From Bryobacteraceae bacterium (GTDB lineage: Bacteria > Acidobacteriota > Terriglobia > Bryobacterales > Bryobacteraceae), in assembly GCA_030041495.1 (NCBI GenBank), contig JASHNT010000107.1, positions 1-64,000 of the forward strand: DNA of 64,000 nt, given 5' to 3'. Every line of letters starts with the position of its first letter. The first letter of the stretch is position 1. The notes beneath the pieces were generated by a model. It ran no database searches and had not been told where the DNA came from. It worked only from the letters and a program-made list of their open reading frames with translations. The position numbers and the translations under genes are program-made. Below, piece by piece: positions 26,534-43,939 of this stretch.

Positions 26534-27517
26534 CTACGCCTTTAAGAACGCCTGCAACTCCGCCAGCGTCTCCTTCGGAGCAGTCTCCTGGAGGTTGTGC
26601 CCGCCCTGTATGGCCTTGCCCGACACGTTCACGCCTTCCTCTTTCCACACGGCGAGGTTGTCGTAAATGTGGTTCACGCGATTGGTGGCTGACCACAACG
26701 TGATCAGCGGGCACTGAATCTTTTTGCCCGCTTTCACATCATCCTCGTCGAGCTTCAAATCCACCGAAGCCGAGGCGCGGTAATCCTCGCACATGCAGTG
26801 TTCCATCGAGAGCTCGGTGCGATGGCGTAGATACTCCTTCTGCGCGTCGTCAGTGACGCGGGCGAGCATTTGTTCGGCTTGCATCTGGAGCTGCGTCTCC
26901 GGACCCGGCGCCCGTTGGAGGTAATTGAACCAGTGCGGATACGCCCGCACGAAATCGAGATTGACGTGCGAATAAAGATAGTGCGCCGGTATAATATCCA
27001 GCACCGCCAGCTTCAGCACCTTGTCCGGATGCTCCAAGGCCATGCGCCGCCCCACGCGTCCTCCGCGGTCGTGGCCCACCATGCGGAACTGTGCGTAGCC
27101 CAGATGTTGCATCACCTCCACGCCGTCCAGAGCCATCGGACGTTTGGATTGCTGCGAATGATCGTCCTTGTCTTCCGGGCGGCTGGAATCGCCATAGCCG
27201 CGCAGATCGCACATCACCAGCGTGTAGTCCTTGGCCAGGTCGCCGGCGATGAGCCTCCAACTGATGACTGAATCCGGCGCTCCGTGAAACATCAGTACGG
27301 GAGGTCCCGACCCGCCGATCACCGCGTTGATCTGAGCGCCGGAGGTTTTGATGCGCTCATTACGGAATCCCGAGCTGAAGAACTTCATGCACGGCGAGGG
27401 CGTACCGGATTCGGGAGTCCATTTCGCCTCATCCGCGCGAGCCTTGCTCTGCAGGAATGCGGCTGCTCCCGCGGCCACCATACTCTTTCGCAACATTCCT
27501 CGACGGGTATCAAACAT
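26534..27517 (-). CDS. Exported alpha/beta hydrolase, haloacetate/fluoroacetate-dehalogenase-like
   Basis: 327 residues. The N-terminus has a twin arginine and hydrophobic stretch (TRRGMLRKSMVAAGAAA), probably a Tat signal. The hydrolase fold shows the oxyanion region MFHGAPDS, CDLRGYGDSSRP, and the nucleophile elbow GHDRGGR, with Asp150 instead of the usual Ser. The catalytic His lies in QGGHNL. An Asp nucleophile with DLRGYGDSS and HDRG is typical of haloacetate dehalogenases and epoxide hydrolases. A strong Shine-Dalgarno (AAGGAG) precedes the ATG. It lies 12 nt downstream of the DUF1552 gene in the same operon. The real substrate is unknown. Confidence 0.75.
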   Translation of the reverse strand: MFDTRRGMLRKSMVAAGAAAFLQSKARADEAKWTPESGTPSPCMKFFSSGFRNERIKTSGAQINAVIGGSGPPVLMFHGAPDSVISWRLIAGDLAKDYTLVMCDLRGYGDSSRPEDKDDHSQQSKRPMALDGVEVMQHLGYAQFRMVGHDRGGRVGRRMALEHPDKVLKLAVLDIIPAHYLYSHVNLDFVRAYPHWFNYLQRAPGPETQLQMQAEQMLARVTDDAQKEYLRHRTELSMEHCMCEDYRASASVDLKLDEDDVKAGKKIQCPLITLWSATNRVNHIYDNLAVWKEEGVNVSGKAIQGGHNLQETAPKETLAELQAFLKA

Positions 27518-27529
27518 CGCAATCTCCTT

Positions 27530-28645
27530 TTACGCCAGCGCCAGCGCGCCAGTGCTGTCGCCCAGCTTCTCGACCGGCACTCCGGCTCGATTCAAAATCG
27601 TCAGTAGCAGATTCGCCATGGGCGTATCCATCCTGCATTTGTAATGGTAGCCGGTCTTGAACCGGCCCCCGAGTTTTCCCGCCATCAGCACAGGCAGCTC
27701 GTTATGGCGATGCAGATTGCCATTGCCCATGCCGCTGCCATACAGAATCAGGCTATGATCCAGCAAGGACCCGCCGCCATCCGGCGTAGCCTGCATTTTT
27801 TCCAGCAGGCAGGCGAGCATCCGCACGTGACAGGTGTCGATCCGCGCCTTCTGCGTGACCAGGTCCGGATCGTCCCGGTGATGCGAAACCCCGTGGCTTC
27901 GCTCACTCAACTCCCGAGCCAGGATCATGGTCGCCACCTGCGTCTTGTCCGTGCGATACGCGAGCACCAGCAGGTCGAACATCACTCTGGCGCGCTCTTC
28001 GAAGCTCGCCGGGTCCAGGCGTTTTTCGATATCCCGCACCTCATCCAGATACCCGTCGAGGGTCATCTTGTCCCCGCTGCCCAGCCGGCCCGCCAGTCCG
28101 CGAGCCTGCTCTTTTACGGCATCGAGGATGCTGCCTTCTCCTTGCGCAGCGTGGCCGAACAGTCGCTCGAAGACCGCTCGCGGCCGATTCTCGGGAAAAT
28201 TGGGAGTGTTCTCATCGCGCCACGATATGCAGTCGAGTAACGCGCTCCCGCTCAGGGTGTCGGCGCTCAACTCCAGCGATTCGGTCCCCAGCGCTCGCGC
28301 TGCGATCTGGTCGGCGCTGACACCGACCCGTACCGGGTCCTCGGTTGCATGCACGCCGGTGAGCCAAGCCGCCGACGCCCGCTCGTGGTCGCCGCTGCCT
28401 TGCCCGTCCGCTTCCCGGTGCGAGAGGCCGCTGACCACGTTGAAAAGGCCATCGACCTTTTCGAGCGGCTTCAGATTCTCCGTTAGCCAGCGATCCCGGA
28501 TGACGCCGTGCGAAACGTACACAAAGCCCAGCCTGGGGGTCTGAGCTGCCTGGGCGTTACGCGCCGCACCCATCGCATCCAGCATCGGCAGGGCGATCGT
28601 GGCTCCCAGCCCTTTCAGCAGTGTTCGCCGCGCCAAGTAGGCCAT
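27530..28645 (-). CDS. DUF1552 family protein, short variant
   Basis: 371 residues from ATG 28645. The N-terminus is Tat-like (ARRTLLKGLGATIALPMLDAM), as usual in DUF1552. Family landmarks are present: LGFVYVSHGVIRDRW, DQIAARALG, a CISW segment, LDGYLDEVRDIEKRL, SHHRDDP and ILYGSGMGNGNLHRHNELPVLMAG. Planctomycetes and Acidobacteria usually encode DUF1552 beside DUF1592-type cytochrome proteins; here a different cytochrome c-type protein is divergent. It is shorter than the roughly 420-450 residues I recall for the family, with the loss mostly in the first third. Function is unknown, exported. Confidence 0.8.
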   Translation of the reverse strand: MAYLARRTLLKGLGATIALPMLDAMGAARNAQAAQTPRLGFVYVSHGVIRDRWLTENLKPLEKVDGLFNVVSGLSHREADGQGSGDHERASAAWLTGVHATEDPVRVGVSADQIAARALGTESLELSADTLSGSALLDCISWRDENTPNFPENRPRAVFERLFGHAAQGEGSILDAVKEQARGLAGRLGSGDKMTLDGYLDEVRDIEKRLDPASFEERARVMFDLLVLAYRTDKTQVATMILARELSERSHGVSHHRDDPDLVTQKARIDTCHVRMLACLLEKMQATPDGGGSLLDHSLILYGSGMGNGNLHRHNELPVLMAGKLGGRFKTGYHYKCRMDTPMANLLLTILNRAGVPVEKLGDSTGALALA

Positions 28646-28656
28646 GAAAACGCCAG

Positions 28657-28662
28657 TATGAT
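28657..28662 (+). promoter_or_regulatory. -10-like hexamer implying a leaderless start for the cytochrome gene
   Basis: TATGAT (28657-28662) is followed by exactly 7 bases and then ATG 28670. With normal spacing transcription would begin at or next to that ATG. No Shine-Dalgarno is visible. This favours 28670 over the later ATG at 28691. Confidence 0.4.
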
Positions 28663-28669
28663 ATCTTGT

Positions 28670-30019
28670 ATGCAACAAATGCAAGCCGCCATGAAAACCC
28701 GGAACAGTATATTCATTTCCTGTTTTTTGCTCGGGGCGGCGGCCCTCAACGCCGCTACGCCGACCTTTGACAAGGACGTCCTGCCCATCCTTCAAAAGCG
28801 CTGCCAGGATTGCCACCGCCCTGGCGAGCTTGCGCCGATGTCTCTGCTCACCTACACCGACGCACGCCCTTGGGCGAAGGCGATGAAGACCGCGGTGCTC
28901 ACCGACAAGATGCCGCCGTGGTTCGCAGATCCCAACTACGGCCATTTCGCCAACGACCGTACCTTGAGCAAAGCCGAGATCGACACTCTGGTCGCGTGGG
29001 CCGATGGCGGAGCTCCGGAAGGCAACCCCAAGGACGCGCCTCCGCCGCGCACGTTTCAGGACGGCTGGAACATTAAGCCGGACATGATCATTGAAATGCC
29101 CGCTGATTTCCACGTTCCCGCCAAGGGCACCATCAACTACCAGAACATCCTGGTGAAGGCGCATTTCGATCAGGACACCTGGGTCGTCGCCGCGGAAATG
29201 CGCGCAGGCAATCCGAAAGTCGTGCACCACATGCGAGCCAACGTGCGGCCTCCCGGATCCACTTGGATGAAAAACGCGATTCCGGGCCAGGCCTATGAAG
29301 AGGGCTCTGAGGCGATGGCGGGCGCGAAGGAAGGCGCGGATCTGCTGGGCAAGTACAACCCCGGTCTGGGCGCACAGACATTCGATGTCGGCGATTCGGC
29401 TAAGTTCATTCCGAAAGGCTCCGACATCGTTTTCAACATCCATTACACGGCCGTCGGCACGCCGCAGACGGACCGTTCCAAGGTTGGGTTGGTTTTCGCG
29501 AAGCATCCTCCCAAGCAGCGTTACTGGATGTCGCCGGGCACCCCCGCGGCGTTCAACTTGGCGATTCCCGCGGGCGATTCCAACGCCGAAGTGGTCAGCG
29601 AAGTCACCGTCGGCGTCGAAGGAGCCAAGCTGGTCTACATCCAGCCGCACATGCACCTGCGCGGCAAGGATTATGAGCTGCGCCTGCTGTATCCCAGCGG
29701 CGAGTCCGAAACCGTCTTCAAGGGCAAATGGAATTTCGATTGGCAGGTGGGCTACCAGCTCGCCAAGCCGATTCTGCTGCCCAAGGGCACCCGCATCCGG
29801 GCCATCGCGCATTACGACAATTCGGCAAACAACAAGTACAATCCCGATCCCACCAAGACCATCTGGTGGGGCGATCAAAATTGGGACGAGATGCAGTCCG
29901 GCTTCCTTGGTTTAGTGTTCGACGTCAATACGGATGTCGACAAGGTGCTCATCCCCAGCGGCCCGAGCCTGCTCCCGCGCGCAGCCTTCGGCCCGACGCT
30001 GGCCACGCTGGGCAAGTAG
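28670..30019 (+). CDS. Exported cytochrome c / copper type II monooxygenase-like protein
   Basis: 449 residues from ATG 28670; ATG 28691 (MKTRNSIFIS) is an alternative start of the signal peptide. The N-terminal domain (about 30-130) has the haem-binding CQDCH (45-49) and MPPWFADP, as in planctomycete-type cytochrome c domains. The rest resembles the two beta-sandwich domains of peptidylglycine/dopamine-type copper monooxygenases. Likely copper ligands are the His pair in VVHHMRA and the motif HMHLRGKDYELRL, with the trailing NPDPTKTIWWGDQNWDEMQ block. It may be a periplasmic redox enzyme. Its substrate is not known. Confidence 0.75.
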   Translation: MQQMQAAMKTRNSIFISCFLLGAAALNAATPTFDKDVLPILQKRCQDCHRPGELAPMSLLTYTDARPWAKAMKTAVLTDKMPPWFADPNYGHFANDRTLSKAEIDTLVAWADGGAPEGNPKDAPPPRTFQDGWNIKPDMIIEMPADFHVPAKGTINYQNILVKAHFDQDTWVVAAEMRAGNPKVVHHMRANVRPPGSTWMKNAIPGQAYEEGSEAMAGAKEGADLLGKYNPGLGAQTFDVGDSAKFIPKGSDIVFNIHYTAVGTPQTDRSKVGLVFAKHPPKQRYWMSPGTPAAFNLAIPAGDSNAEVVSEVTVGVEGAKLVYIQPHMHLRGKDYELRLLYPSGESETVFKGKWNFDWQVGYQLAKPILLPKGTRIRAIAHYDNSANNKYNPDPTKTIWWGDQNWDEMQSGFLGLVFDVNTDVDKVLIPSGPSLLPRAAFGPTLATLGK

Positions 30020-30052
30020 GCGCACGCTCTCCAGTTGATAAACTGGACGGCC

Positions 30053-31684
30053 ATGAGAAGTTCTCTCGCCGTCCTTTTGCTTTCCTGCGCCACTCCCGCG
30101 CTCGCGCAAGATGCTTGCGCCGGCTCGCGCGATCTGCGCATCGTCAATGCTCGCATCCATACCATGGACGCGAAGGACACCATCCTCAATGAGATCGCTA
30201 TCCAGGACGGAAAATTCGCCACCGGGACGAAGCTCAGCCCCTGCACCAAGACCATCAACCTACGCGGGCGCACTGTGGTGCCGGGCCTGATCGACAATCA
30301 CAATCACATCGTGTTGTTCGGCATGCGCCCGGGGCACGACGTGCGTATCGAGACCGCGTCCTCGATCGCGGAAGTTCAGGCAATCCTCCGCGACCGCGCC
30401 AAAACTCTGCCGTCCGGAGCTTTCATCACCACGCTCGGCGATTGGAACGCCAAGCAGTTCGCCGAGAAGCGCGCGCCTACGCTTGAGGAGCTGGATCAAG
30501 CCTTGCCCAACAATCCTTACGTGATGAACGGCAGCGGGACCATCACCAACACTCTGGGAAAGAAATTCTTCGAGTCGAAAGGCGTCATGGTCAATCCCAG
30601 CGGCACCATCACGGGACAGCAATTCACTGCCGCGCTTCATGCTCTCCGCGACATCCAGACCTTCGACGACATGAAGCAGGGCACGATGTACGCGATGCAG
30701 TATCTGGTGAGCTTTGGGCTGACCACCAGCGCCGATATGGGAGCGTTCACGATTCCAGGGACTCCGGACATGCAGGGTGCGGCCGAGAGCGACGGCGTCG
30801 AGAGTCTCAACCCGTGGACCATGTACGACGCGTTCATGGCGCTCCATCGCGAAGGAAAAATGATCGAGCGCCTGCGCATCTACTATCTTTCGCAGGACAC
30901 CGCGCCGGACGTTCCCATCTTGAAGGAGCGGATGCTGAACGCGTTTCCAGGCTTCGGCGACGACATGCTGCGTTCCACCGGTATCGGCGAATTCGCAGCG
31001 GCGTGGCGATTCCAAGGGCGCGGCCGCGGAGCGCAAGGACCCGGGCCATCGAATTATGAAACCGCCTTGCAGATGGTCGCCAAGCATGGATGGGCGTTCC
31101 AGCAGCACACTTTGTCACTGAACGAGGATCAGTTCACCACATCGACATTTGAAAAAGTGAACGCCGTTACGCCGATCGCAGACCTGCGCTGGTCCATCGC
31201 GCACGTGCCGAAAATCGATCTGCCTACGCTGCTGCGGCTGAAAGCCATCGGCGCGGGGGTTGCCGTGCACGGATGGTTGTATCTTTCGGGCACACCCAAC
31301 AACGGAGGCCCTCCCTACCGCACCATCGTCGATAGCGGCATCCACGTGGGCGCAGGGTCGGACGCGGCGGCGGTTTCGGTGTTCGATCCGTGGTTCGAGA
31401 TTTATTACATGGTGACCGGCAAGAACGCCGCGGGCGAGCTGATCAACGACAAGCAGCAGCTTACTCGGCAGGAAGCTATCCGCCTCTACACGGCGAACAA
31501 CGGATGGTTCCTGCACGAAGAAGACAAGCTGGGGACCATCGAGGGAGGAAAGCTCGGCGACTTGGTGGCGTTGAACGACGATTACTTCGATCCGAAGAAA
31601 GTATCCGACGAAGGCATCAAGAAGCTGAAATCGGTGCTGACGGTCGTCGGCGGACAAATCGTCTACGATCAGCTTCCGAAGTGA
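30053..31684 (+). CDS. Exported amidohydrolase (YtcJ-like, amidohydrolase 3 family)
   Basis: 543 residues from ATG 30053, with a signal peptide (MRSSLAVLLLSCATPALAQ). The beta-sandwich plus TIM-barrel layout is visible: VNARIHTMDAKD and LRGRTVVPGLIDNHNHIVLFG (metal-binding HNH near residue 83), TTLGDWNAKQF, WSIAHVPK, GAGSDAAAVSVFDPW with the conserved Asp, and the C-terminal GTIEGGKLGDLVALN strand. The family hydrolyses C-N bonds of amides or cyclic imides. It follows the cytochrome/copper gene by 33 nt and is probably co-transcribed, but no metabolic link is clear. Confidence 0.85.
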   Translation: MRSSLAVLLLSCATPALAQDACAGSRDLRIVNARIHTMDAKDTILNEIAIQDGKFATGTKLSPCTKTINLRGRTVVPGLIDNHNHIVLFGMRPGHDVRIETASSIAEVQAILRDRAKTLPSGAFITTLGDWNAKQFAEKRAPTLEELDQALPNNPYVMNGSGTITNTLGKKFFESKGVMVNPSGTITGQQFTAALHALRDIQTFDDMKQGTMYAMQYLVSFGLTTSADMGAFTIPGTPDMQGAAESDGVESLNPWTMYDAFMALHREGKMIERLRIYYLSQDTAPDVPILKERMLNAFPGFGDDMLRSTGIGEFAAAWRFQGRGRGAQGPGPSNYETALQMVAKHGWAFQQHTLSLNEDQFTTSTFEKVNAVTPIADLRWSIAHVPKIDLPTLLRLKAIGAGVAVHGWLYLSGTPNNGGPPYRTIVDSGIHVGAGSDAAAVSVFDPWFEIYYMVTGKNAAGELINDKQQLTRQEAIRLYTANNGWFLHEEDKLGTIEGGKLGDLVALNDDYFDPKKVSDEGIKKLKSVLTVVGGQIVYDQLPK

Positions 31685-32242
31685 TCATTCCTCCGTCAAT
31701 TTCGATGCCGGGTAGGTCACGCGTTTTGCGCGCACCTTCGCAAAGGGCGTCAACGAATGCGGTTCTGAGCGCGTCCGGCTCATGATGTGGCGCGCCTCGA
31801 TGCCGCGGGCGAGCAGCGCATCGGCGATCATCGACCGGTGACAGCGCCACGGCACGGCTTCCGCGCACATGATCGCGACCGGCTTCTTCGCCGCGGCTGC
31901 GATCAATTTCTCCAGGCCGGCTTCGAACTCCTCAGTCTGCATAAAATCGGCGAAGCCGCGAAACGACGCATTGTGCCAACCAGCGTTGATCGAATCCGGC
32001 CGGGCGTGGCGCAGCCCGCCGAGCTGCTTCAGGTGCTGGTAGGCAATCTTCGCCTGTTTCAACGAATCCGGCAGGGAATCGCCGTTGAATTGCGGATTGT
32101 GGCGTGAGCGCGGAACCGTGCGGATGTCGATCAGCCGCTTGACGCCGTGAGCCTTCAGAAGCTCGATGAAGTTTTCGATGCTTCGCGTCGAGTGTCCGAC
32201 CGTGAAGATTGGTGCGCGATCCGCACCGTCACCCTTTTTCAA
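31685..32242 (-). CDS. DUF488 family protein
   Basis: 185 residues. It shows the DUF488 pattern: IFTVGHSTRSIENFIELLKAHGVKRLIDIRTVPRSRHNPQFN, YQHLKQLGGLR, FADFM and the conserved cysteine/arginine segment VAIMCAEAVPWRCHRSMIADAL near residue 125-145. The function is not established. The start codon appears to be TTG at 32242, overlapping the end of the decarboxylase-like gene by 14 nt, so the two are likely translated together. The stop abuts the convergent amidohydrolase gene. Confidence 0.85.
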   Translation of the reverse strand: MKKGDGADRAPIFTVGHSTRSIENFIELLKAHGVKRLIDIRTVPRSRHNPQFNGDSLPDSLKQAKIAYQHLKQLGGLRHARPDSINAGWHNASFRGFADFMQTEEFEAGLEKLIAAAAKKPVAIMCAEAVPWRCHRSMIADALLARGIEARHIMSRTRSEPHSLTPFAKVRAKRVTYPASKLTEE

Positions 32243-33011
32243 GGAGCGTGCCGTAACCCTTCACCCTCCCGCTCAACCCGAGCAAGCGCACTCCCGCCCA
32301 CAAAGCATGGGGCGTGCTGGAAACCGCCGGCACGTGCGTTTGCTTTTCCAGCGGCGCGAGAATCTCCAATGTCCGCAGACCGCCGCAGGACACCAGTATC
32401 GCGTTCGCCTGCGGCGCCGATTCGCGCACGTCCACGCTGAACTTCAGTAGCTCCGGCTGCGTGACCTGATTCACCCCAGCCACAGCTTCAATGCCGAGCC
32501 CCTTTATCTTCAAAACCTCGAAGCCGTTCTCTTTGAGGAACGCCGCGAGCCGGCCGTTGACCACGTCGTCGTAGGCCGTCGCCACAGCCAGGCGCTTCGC
32601 GCCGACGGTTTTCAACCCTTCGATCACTGCCGTGCTCATGGTGGTGGCGGGAAGGCCGGTTGCGCTCTTGATCGTATCGGTGAGCTGCTGGTTGAACGCC
32701 GAACCTTTATAAAACGTGAGCGAAGTTCCCATCAGCACGATGGCCTTGACGCCTTCATGGGCCAGTTTTTCTGCCGCGGGCTTAATCTCGGGGATGACCT
32801 TGTCGTAGCCCTCCGGGGTCATCGTTTTGAGGTCGAGGTGCGTGATGACGAACTTGACCTCAGTCGGGTACATGATGAGACCTTCCGGCGGAACCGGACG
32901 GTCGACCGGGAAGATCAGTCCTAACTTGGGCGGCTCCGCGGCCGTCAAGGCGCCCGCGCCGGCAAACGACACGGCCGCAGTCTTCAAGAAATCACGGCGA
33001 TTGTGACTCAT
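32229..33011 (-). CDS. Tat-exported arylmalonate decarboxylase-like protein (Asp/Glu racemase superfamily)
   Basis: 260 residues from ATG 33011 with a preceding AAAGGA. Residues 1-25 are a twin-arginine signal (NRRDFLKTAAVSFAGAGALTAA). The body closely follows my memory of Bordetella arylmalonate decarboxylase: LGLIFPV, TPEGYD (Tyr69), LMGTSLTFYKGSAFN (Gly95-Thr96-Ser97, dioxyanion pocket), TGLPATTMSTAV, VATAYDD (Tyr147) and the catalytic Cys209 in LVSCGGL. In the enzyme a single Cys protonates the enediolate after CO2 loss. Unlike racemases, only one active-site Cys is present (Gly95 replaces the other). The known enzyme is cytoplasmic, so export is odd. It lies 7 nt after an aldo/keto reductase gene. 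Confidence 0.82.
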   Translation of the reverse strand: MSHNRRDFLKTAAVSFAGAGALTAAEPPKLGLIFPVDRPVPPEGLIMYPTEVKFVITHLDLKTMTPEGYDKVIPEIKPAAEKLAHEGVKAIVLMGTSLTFYKGSAFNQQLTDTIKSATGLPATTMSTAVIEGLKTVGAKRLAVATAYDDVVNGRLAAFLKENGFEVLKIKGLGIEAVAGVNQVTQPELLKFSVDVRESAPQANAILVSCGGLRTLEILAPLEKQTHVPAVSSTPHALWAGVRLLGLSGRVKGYGTLLEKG

Positions 33012-33018
33012 CGTCCTT

Positions 33019-34038
33019 TCATCCTCTTCTGTCCTTGATGAAAAATTGCTGATGCCAATAAGGGTATGCCAACGGGACGGCACTTACGGCGTCGAGCTTG
33101 GCGACCTGCTCCGCAGTTAGACTCCAGCCCACAGCGCCCAAGTTCTCGCGCAACTGCTCCTCGTTACGCGCGCCCATGATGACGGAAGAAACCGTGGGCT
33201 GCTGCGTCAGCCAGTTCAGAGCGATCTGTGGCACGCTTTTGCCCGTCTCCCGCGCGATCTCATCGATCGCCTCGACGACCTTGTAGAGATGGTCGTCCGG
33301 AACCGGAGGGCCGATGGAAGCCGTGGCAGGCAGGCGGCTGACCTCGGGCCTCGGCTGATTGCGGCGGATCTTGCCGGTGAGCCGGCCCCAGCCCAATGGA
33401 CTCCACACCAGCAGCCCGACTTTTTGATCGAGCCCCAGTGGCATCAGCTCCCATTCGTAATCGCGCCCCACTAGCGAGTAATATGCTTGATGCGCTACGT
33501 AGCGTGCCCAGCCGTAGCGGTCGGAGACGGCTAGGGATTTCATCAAGTGCCAGCCGGAGAAATTGGAGCAGCCGATGTAGCGGATCTTGCCCGCGCGCAC
33601 CATGTCGTTGAGCGTCGCCAGCGTCTCTTCCACCGGAGTCGCCACGTCGAAACCGTGCAGTTGGTAGATGTCGATGTAATCCGTGTTGAGGCGCTTGAGG
33701 CTCGAGTGAATCGCATCCGTGAGATGATGGCGGGAACTGCCGGAATCATTCGGTCCGGTTCCGGAGCGGAAAGAGCCTTTGGTCGAGATGAGGACGCTAG
33801 CTCGCCGGCCCGCGACGGCCTTGCCTAGAATCTCTTCCGACATTCCGCTCGAATAAATGTCCGCGGTGTCGAACAGATTGACGCCCGCGTCGAGGCAGAT
33901 GTCGACCAGACGCGTGGCTTCCGCGACGTCCGTAGCTCCCCACGCACGAAAAATTTCGCCGCTGCCGCCGAACGTACCCGCACCGAAGCTCAACACCGGC
34001 ACTTTGAGGCCGGAACCGCCAAGTTGTCTGAATTCCAC
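33019..34038 (-). CDS. Aldo/keto reductase
   Basis: 339 residues with the (beta/alpha)8 fold of the family. The catalytic Asp and Tyr are in FDTADIYSSGMSEEILG, the Lys in LISTKGSF and the His in YQLHGFD. NADPH-binding segments are VIMGARNEEQLRENLGA and WSPLGWGRLTGK. It reduces aldehydes or ketones with NADPH. The start is GTG 34038, with TAAGAT 7 nt upstream and no Shine-Dalgarno, so probably leaderless. It heads the operon with the decarboxylase-like and DUF488 genes. Confidence 0.9.
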   Translation of the reverse strand: MEFRQLGGSGLKVPVLSFGAGTFGGSGEIFRAWGATDVAEATRLVDICLDAGVNLFDTADIYSSGMSEEILGKAVAGRRASVLISTKGSFRSGTGPNDSGSSRHHLTDAIHSSLKRLNTDYIDIYQLHGFDVATPVEETLATLNDMVRAGKIRYIGCSNFSGWHLMKSLAVSDRYGWARYVAHQAYYSLVGRDYEWELMPLGLDQKVGLLVWSPLGWGRLTGKIRRNQPRPEVSRLPATASIGPPVPDDHLYKVVEAIDEIARETGKSVPQIALNWLTQQPTVSSVIMGARNEEQLRENLGAVGWSLTAEQVAKLDAVSAVPLAYPYWHQQFFIKDRRG

Positions 34039-42359: not shown

Positions 42360-42767
42360 ATGAGATTCTTGTGTGCTGCAGCGTTGCTGGCCACCGGAGG
42401 CCTGACCTTCCTGTTCGCGCAGGGCGACAAAAACTTCACCGGCGGCGAGGTGACCAAGCTCGGTTCCGGCGCCGCTCCCGCGATCGCCCACTTCCGTTTC
42501 GGCCCCGGCTCGCGAACTAAGTGGCACAGCCATTCCGGCGGCCAGATCATCCTGGTCGAGGAAGGCGTGGCACTGACACAAGTGAAAGGCGGCCCGGTGA
42601 TCGAGCTGCACGCCGGCGAGACCACCTATGTCGGCCCTGGCGTGATGCATTGGCACGGAGGCGGCGTTAAAGAAGGCGGAGTGCAGTACAACGTCACGCG
42701 CGGCGACATCACCTGGGGCGCGGAAGTCACCGACGCCGAGTACAAAGCCAAACCGAAGCGTCCATGA
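42360..42767 (+). CDS. Exported cupin-fold protein
   Basis: 135 residues from ATG 42360 with a signal peptide (RFLCAAALLATGGLTFLFAQ). A single cupin barrel carries the metal-site motif GSRTKWHSHSGGQIILVEEG (two His and later a Glu/Gln) and the second motif GPGVMHWHGG. Such small exported cupins resemble quercetinase-like or carboxymuconolactone-associated proteins; the substrate is unknown. The stop codon overlaps the start of the FMN-oxidase gene (ATGA), so the two are probably co-translated. Confidence 0.82.
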   Translation: MRFLCAAALLATGGLTFLFAQGDKNFTGGEVTKLGSGAAPAIAHFRFGPGSRTKWHSHSGGQIILVEEGVALTQVKGGPVIELHAGETTYVGPGVMHWHGGGVKEGGVQYNVTRGDITWGAEVTDAEYKAKPKRP

Positions 42768-43939
42768 CCCGGGTCTTTCGGAACGAATCCCGCCGCCGGT
42801 TCCTGCAATTCCTCGCCGCGAGCCCGCTGTTGAAGGAAGCCTGGGCGCAGCAGCCTCCCGCGTCCGCAGCGGATGTGCTCGCCCTGATGGACTTTGAGGA
42901 ACTGGCGCATCAGAAGCTGCCGCCCGCACATTGGGGGTATTTGGCGAGCGGTGTCGACGACAATCTTACTCGCGACGCTAACAACGCGGCGTACCGGCGT
43001 ATCGAATTGCATCCGCGCAAATTGGTGGACGTCTCGAAACCCGATCTACGCGTGACGCTGTTTGGCGAAGAATTCAATAGCCCCATTTTTTTGTGTCCCT
43101 TGGGCGGGCAGAAAATGTTCAACCCGGAGGGCGAGGTCGCCTCAGCGCGAGCCGCGCAAGCCAAGAATACGCTGCAGATTCTATCTACGCAAACCTCGGC
43201 TTCGCTCGAGGACGTGGCCAAGGCGCTGGGAAGGCCACCCTGGTATCAGCTCTACATGCCGGTGAAATGGGAGGACACGGAAAAACTGGTGCGCCGCGTG
43301 GAAAACGCCGGCTGCACGGTGATGGCGTGGACCATTGACCTGTTGGCCGGCCGCAACACCGAGACGGCCGTGCGCCTGGCTCGCACCGATACGCGCGACT
43401 GCTATAGCTGCCACGTCAAGGGGCAAGGGCCGACCGGACAAGTCGCTCGGCCTCCCGGTCACGCCCCGATGTTCGCGGGGTTAAGCAGCACCGCGATCAA
43501 TCCGCCCGCGGCCACTTGGGATTACGTCGACCGGCTCAAGAAGCTGACCAAGATGAAGCTGCTGCTCAAGGGCCTTGAAACGCGCGAAGACGCGAGGCTC
43601 GCGCGCGAGCACGGTGTGGATGGCATCATCGTCTCCAACCACGGCGGCCGCGCCACCGAGGACATGCGCCCGACGATCGAGAGCTTGCCGGAAGTCATCG
43701 ATGGAGCCGGGCCCGAGATGCCGGTGCTGGTCGACGGCGGAGTGCGCCGTGGTACCGACGCCTACAAAGCTCTGGCGCGAGGCGCGCGCGCGGTCGGCAT
43801 CGGCCGCCCGTACGTGTGGGGCCTGACCGCGTTCGGACAGCCCGGCGTCGAGCGCGTGCTCGACATCCTGCATGCCGAGCTGCAGCGCACCATGCAGCAG
43901 TGCGGCACGCCGACCATCCGTTCCATCGCGAAAGTCTGA
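42764..43939 (+). CDS. Exported FMN-dependent alpha-hydroxy-acid oxidase with CxxCH motif
   Basis: 391 residues from ATG 42764. A twin-arginine signal (SRRRFLQFLAAS) starts the protein. FMN/TIM-barrel landmarks are PLGGQKMF, STQTSASLEDV, YQLYMPVKWEDTEKLVRRVENAG, KGLETREDARLAREHGVDGIIVSNHGGR (catalytic His293, Arg296) and VLVDGGVRRGTDAYKALARGARAVGIGRPYVWG. These enzymes oxidise 2-hydroxy acids such as lactate. An extra CYSCH at 213-217 inside the barrel could bind haem c covalently in the periplasm, giving a flavocytochrome. Encoded with an exported cupin. Confidence 0.88.
   Translation: MTRVFRNESRRRFLQFLAASPLLKEAWAQQPPASAADVLALMDFEELAHQKLPPAHWGYLASGVDDNLTRDANNAAYRRIELHPRKLVDVSKPDLRVTLFGEEFNSPIFLCPLGGQKMFNPEGEVASARAAQAKNTLQILSTQTSASLEDVAKALGRPPWYQLYMPVKWEDTEKLVRRVENAGCTVMAWTIDLLAGRNTETAVRLARTDTRDCYSCHVKGQGPTGQVARPPGHAPMFAGLSSTAINPPAATWDYVDRLKKLTKMKLLLKGLETREDARLAREHGVDGIIVSNHGGRATEDMRPTIESLPEVIDGAGPEMPVLVDGGVRRGTDAYKALARGARAVGIGRPYVWGLTAFGQPGVERVLDILHAELQRTMQQCGTPTIRSIAKV

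Follow-up and report, generated by a model that had tools for sequence, protein, structure and literature searches.

In which compartment does an arylmalonate decarboxylase (AMDase) work, and can its neighbouring genes tell what it does in nature? Both questions are raised by a stretch of 64,000 nucleotides from a Bryobacteraceae bacterium (the window in the following), which encodes an AMDase homologue with a twin-arginine (Tat)-like N-terminus in a tight run with an aldo/keto reductase (AKR) and a DUF488 protein (Table 1). AMDases, which serve to make enantiopure profens, expel a carboxylate from a hydrophobic pocket without any cofactor and protonate the product by a cysteine, giving the (R)-acid. 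In the 2016 census by Maimanakos et al. they were confined to Alpha-, Beta- and Gammaproteobacteria, the hallmark of their amd loci being TTT, TRAP, ABC or MR/MLE genes, and their natural substrate was called unidentified (PMC4996985). From the analysis described below, it appears that the enzyme leaves the cytoplasm in soil Acidobacteria, in contrast to the bacteria previously known to possess it.

Table 1: Features of the AMDase locus, given in window positions.
Feature	Position	Strand	Basis and remarks
AKR, first gene of the tight run	33019..34038	minus	PF00248; close to PDB 4xk2; no signal peptide seen
Tat-AMDase gene, 260 aa	32229..33011	minus	PF17645 / NF052327 AMDase homologue; ATG start at 33011, TGA stop ending at 32229
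Tat-like signal peptide (predicted), about residues 1–26 (MSHNRRDFLKTAAVSFAGAGALTAAE)	32934..33011	minus	TIGR01409; RR at residues 5–6
Gly95-Thr96-Ser97 (Bordetella G74-T75-S76), dioxyanion hole	32721..32729	minus	alignment; roles from PMC4996985, Tables 4–5
Tyr147 (Bordetella Y126)	32571..32573	minus	alignment
Cys209 (Bordetella C188), sole cysteine	32385..32387	minus	alignment
DUF488 protein	31685..32242	minus	PF04343; TTG start; 14 nt overlap with the 3' end of the AMDase gene

The query protein is an AMDase homologue and not a maleate isomerase. Its top match in Pfam is PF17645 (Amdase, 1e-79, 267.8 bits with a cut-off of 25.9) and its top match in NCBIfam the equivalog model NF052327 (arylmal_decarb), where it reaches 263.5 bits and exceeds the cut-off of 225, on a scale on which the AMDases from Bordetella, Aminobacter and Ponticoccus score 380, 303.6 and 271.9 bits. 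The top PDB match is the Bordetella AMDase 2vlb (1.5e-55), compared to 1.5e-11 for the best maleate isomerase. The homology proposed in the sequence-only reading was thereby confirmed, and a closer relationship to maleate isomerase, looked for by score and by structure, was not found. Over 236 aligned residues the protein is 44% identical to the AMDase from Bordetella bronchiseptica KU1201 (EC 4.1.1.76; PDB 2vlb, 3ip8, 3ixl) and it has the same fold, as its AlphaFold model (mean pLDDT 90) matches 3ixl with a Z score of 37.7 and 1.1 Å over 233 residues. With the maleate cis-trans isomerases (PDB 2xec, 4fq5) it shares the superfamily fold (Z about 32) at 18–23% identity. As the current NCBI model would already name this protein, the family assignment itself is not news.

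All active site residues that had been named from the sequence alone (Gly-Thr-Ser, Tyr69, Tyr147 and Cys209) proved to be correct, matching G74-T75-S76, Y48, Y126 and C188 of the Bordetella enzyme. Together with Gly210, which aligns with G189, the dioxyanion hole formed by T75, S76, Y126 and G189 is complete in the query (Thr96, Ser97, Tyr147 and Gly210). In characterised AMDases Cys188 is the proton donor to the enediolate (PMC4996985). Since its counterpart Cys209 is the sole cysteine of the query, a reaction with two cysteines, as in maleate isomerases and racemases, is impossible; a second active site cysteine was searched for and is absent, Gly95 occupying its position (the first of the two catalytic cysteine positions in maleate cis-trans isomerase). 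Score, single cysteine and Gly95 rule out an identity as maleate isomerase, EutA or racemase. The hydrophobic pocket at Bordetella positions 40, 43, 48, 156 and 159 consists of Leu, Met, Tyr, Val and Val, which are identical or similar to the Bordetella residues (M43 and V159 replace V43 and M159), and the motifs LMGTSLTF and ILVSCGGL are near-identical to LMGTSLSF and ILLSCGGL. The residues used for screening in PMC4996985 are thus present either exactly or as similar ones, with the exception of P14 P15 of the large pocket, the first item of that screen. Here the query reads F-P-V-D-R with one Pro fewer than the Bordetella enzyme, and as the loop is one residue shorter the alignment is ambiguous at this point; the sister sequence L011 has PP at this position.

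Of the 237 genomes of the bacterial family to which the query genome belongs, 15 were found to carry such genes, 19 of which score above the cut-off. Sampling across the class brought in six further genes, all from a single genus of another family, and three from a single genus of a third family, two of the latter scoring just below the cut-off, which gives a total of 28 Tat-AMDase-type genes in 24 genomes from three families of one acidobacterial class. The description of AMDase as known from few bacteria needs to be changed in view of these 24 sampled genomes. A single-sequence scan of genome contigs returned one named relative, from a Candidatus Acidiferrales MAG (L027, Acidobacteriota), and no relative was found in the viral contigs scanned. 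In a midpoint-rooted tree with the AMDases from Bordetella, Aminobacter and Ponticoccus as the three outside sequences, a branch with a support of 98/97 separates all 28 acidobacterial proteins from these three. The positions G74, S76, Y126, C188 and G189 are kept in every one of them and T75 in 25, the remaining three having Ser. The AMDases from Aminobacter (L071, ABC type) and Ponticoccus (L072, TTT, MR/MLE type) belong to the same family and possess the same catalytic set as the query. At Bordetella position 214 (His235 in the query) all 28 Tat-AMDases carry His, whereas the three proteobacterial AMDases compared, including that of Bordetella, carry Ala.

Within the acidobacterial branch the subgroup of the query (with L003, L004, L005 and L011) retains the hydrophobic pocket, whereas in most other subgroups position 156 is Phe or a gap and position 159 is occupied by Arg, Ser, Thr or His. 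Four genomes (G000, G171, G191 and G197) harbour two copies each, compared to one strain with two AMDases in the 2016 census (PMC4996985). A copy of the query type is paired with one from another subgroup in three of the four (G000, G191 and G197), and G171 combines two non-query subgroups. The second AMDase of the query genome is encoded on another contig, belongs to another subgroup and is also Tat-tagged (MTSRRRFVQSVAAATLAAPLASA). Judged from these pocket residues, different substrates among the subgroups are plausible, and arylmalonate activity is less certain for the subgroups with an altered pocket.

The same variation bears on an alternative in which the query shares the fold and the catalytic logic (a carboxylate hole plus one cysteine) and is Tat-exported, but in which its physiological reaction is not the decarboxylation of an aryl- or alkenylmalonate but, for example, that of another polar malonate or another enediolate reaction. 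Besides the changed leaving-carboxylate pocket in most other subgroups and the invariant His at position 214, it could be argued that arylmalonates are considered unlikely substrates for annotated AMDases in which the hydrophobic pocket is missing, and testing of such a protein from Acidianus hospitalis is reported by the authors (PMC4996985). However, the query retains V156 and V159, its two motifs are almost unchanged and it has no second cysteine for racemisation or cis-trans isomerisation. We regard this alternative as unlikely, though it is the strongest of those considered here.

Less probable still is the assumption that AKR, AMDase and DUF488 form one catabolic pathway whose first enzyme reveals the role of the AMDase, similar to the sequence-only reading, in which this operon was suggested to point to the physiological pathway. 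All three genes are on the same strand, with a gap of 7 nt between the AKR stop and the AMDase start and the 14 nt overlap at the other end. The AKR-AMDase pair is intact in one sister species (G187; AKR 86% and AMDase 70% identical) despite flanking genes that are rearranged relative to a common M10 peptidase/NHL pair, the AMDase of G197 is preceded at a distance of 4 nt by an iron alcohol dehydrogenase, and the ABC-type cluster of Aminobacter also contains an AKR. However, G187 is the only other place where the pair was found, and it lacks DUF488, which was seen beside AMDase in no other locus found. The proteobacterial AKRs are of a different subfamily (26–32% identity), close homologues of the query AKR are unlinked to AMDase in two AMDase-bearing genomes (G180 and G193), most other AMDase loci have unrelated and differing neighbours, and the signal peptide is present on the AMDase but not on AKR or DUF488. 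Thus the neighbourhood reveals no pathway, and the operon is a weak guide to the function of the AMDase.

Other genes near the AMDases did not lead further. No TTT, TRAP, ABC or MR/MLE gene was identified among the AMDase neighbours scanned, which sets the query locus apart from that of Bordetella and the acidobacterial AMDases, neither proteobacterial nor accompanied by adjoining transporters, from those of the 2016 census. Models for phenylacetate-CoA ligase (TIGR02155) and the PaaA epoxidase (TIGR02156) had no match in the query genome, which speaks against the phenylacetate-CoA route and leaves a phenylacetate-type product without an obvious route. PQQ-dependent dehydrogenases near several AMDase loci were considered as a periplasmic alcohol-to-acid route and rejected, as with at least 19–42 PQQ genes per genome their proximity is not informative. 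A family of exported proteins (c1), seen repeatedly in the vicinity of AMDase in two bacterial families, was also set aside, since it is multi-copy, with L057 alone containing two members. An exported-looking SnoaL-like protein was also seen near AMDase (L057 9877-10515, L061 6647-7165 and L097 7085-7585), 56–58% identical between two bacterial families. About 9 kb from the AMDase, the window itself encodes an enzyme of the FMN-dependent alpha-hydroxyacid dehydrogenase family (42764-43939, plus strand, PF01070), the N-terminus of which is Tat-like (MTRVFRNESRRRFLQFLAASPLLKEAWA). Another Tat-like N-terminus (MFDTRRGMLRKSMVAAGAAAF) is present on an alpha/beta hydrolase (26534-27517, minus strand). 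Between the hydrolase and the AMDase are a DUF1552-like ORF (27530-29878, minus strand) and a signal-bearing amidohydrolase (30035-31684, plus strand), so that several predicted exported proteins cluster here.

The N-terminus of the query (MSHNRRDFLKTAAVSFAGAGALTAA) passes the Tat model TIGR01409 with 18.4 bits (cut-off 16.7). Its motif N-R-R-D-F-L-K fits the S/T-R-R-x-F-L-K-like pattern and is followed by a hydrophobic region, with a predicted A-x-A-like end near residues 23–25. R5 and R6 are invariant across 20 aligned homologues and the rest of the presequence is variable. In all 27 acidobacterial homologues with a complete N-terminus, RR is located 3–6 residues from a start and precedes a hydrophobic stretch; one homologue was left out of this count because its contig ends inside the motif. 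The generic Tat model was matched at E ≤ 0.01 by only five of 20 homologues, but the motif itself is present in all. The twin-arginine signal proposed earlier is therefore borne out, and as far as can be judged from its conservation in all complete members of one clade it is no accident. Two tatC genes are located side by side on contig C41 of the query genome, and such a pair has also been reported for Solibacter (PMC3827258). In contrast, the plasmid-encoded AMDases from Aminobacter and Ponticoccus begin directly at the core domain, and a Tat-like N-terminus was looked for in both and found in neither; the Bordetella enzyme likewise differs from the query in this extension. Among about 30 non-AMDase homologues of the superfamily examined, one has a Tat-like N-terminus, a Tat-tagged member of the Asp/Glu-racemase superfamily from another acidobacterial family (L039 in G575) without the Gly74 and Cys188 residues of AMDase.

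That the query might be an ordinary cytoplasmic AMDase, its Tat-like N-terminus having no function or resulting from a wrongly assigned start, would agree with the open frame running on upstream to a GTG at 33083 and with neighbours (AKR and DUF488) without obvious signal, but is very improbable given the invariant RR close to a start in 27 homologues, the hydrophobic stretch reaching just up to the AMDase fold (the alignment to 3ixl starts at residue 27, and the presequence has low pLDDT and lies wholly outside the fold) and the Tat tag on the other AMDase encoded by the query genome.

We therefore consider it probable that the query is a Tat-exported enzyme of the AMDase family, which catalyses the cofactor-free decarboxylation of an alpha-substituted malonate outside the inner membrane with an (R)-monoacid as product. 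The protein would fold in the cytoplasm and be exported by Tat in its folded state. Outside the inner membrane it would strip one carboxylate from an aryl- or alkenyl-like substituted malonate without a cofactor, with the leaving carboxylate housed in the hydrophobic pocket and the other one held by Thr96, Ser97, Tyr147 and Gly210, before Cys209 would protonate the enediolate from one face to give the (R)-monoacid. Export, decarboxylase activity and stereochemistry are all properties that we infer for this protein, and the missing Pro in the P14-P15 loop, the cytoplasmic-looking neighbours, the lack of matches to the phenylacetate-CoA models and the few matches to the generic Tat model speak against them. 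As a speculation, 2-substituted malonates that arise by oxidation of 1,3-diols of plant or lignin origin would be fitting substrates for an enzyme outside the cytoplasm in soil.

A literature search for AMDase together with twin-arginine or with Acidobacteria found no paper, and as far as this search shows the novelty lies in the putatively exported clade of Acidobacteria, in its division by pocket residues and in the genomes with two copies. A tentative extension, which we put forward as possible and with less confidence than the reading of the query as an exported decarboxylase, is that a so far undescribed acidobacterial AMDase branch acts extracytoplasmically and has diverged into subgroups that differ in their substrate pocket, with two different malonate decarboxylases being exported by some species.

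If true, natural substituted malonates would be decarboxylated extracytoplasmically and the monoacid instead of the malonate would be taken up. What appears to be new thus concerns where AMDase works and not the reaction that it performs in nature. The clade provides 28 new sequences for assay, several with naturally altered pockets, and the Tat tag shifts the question from the malonate importer to which extracellular or periplasmic malonate gets decarboxylated.
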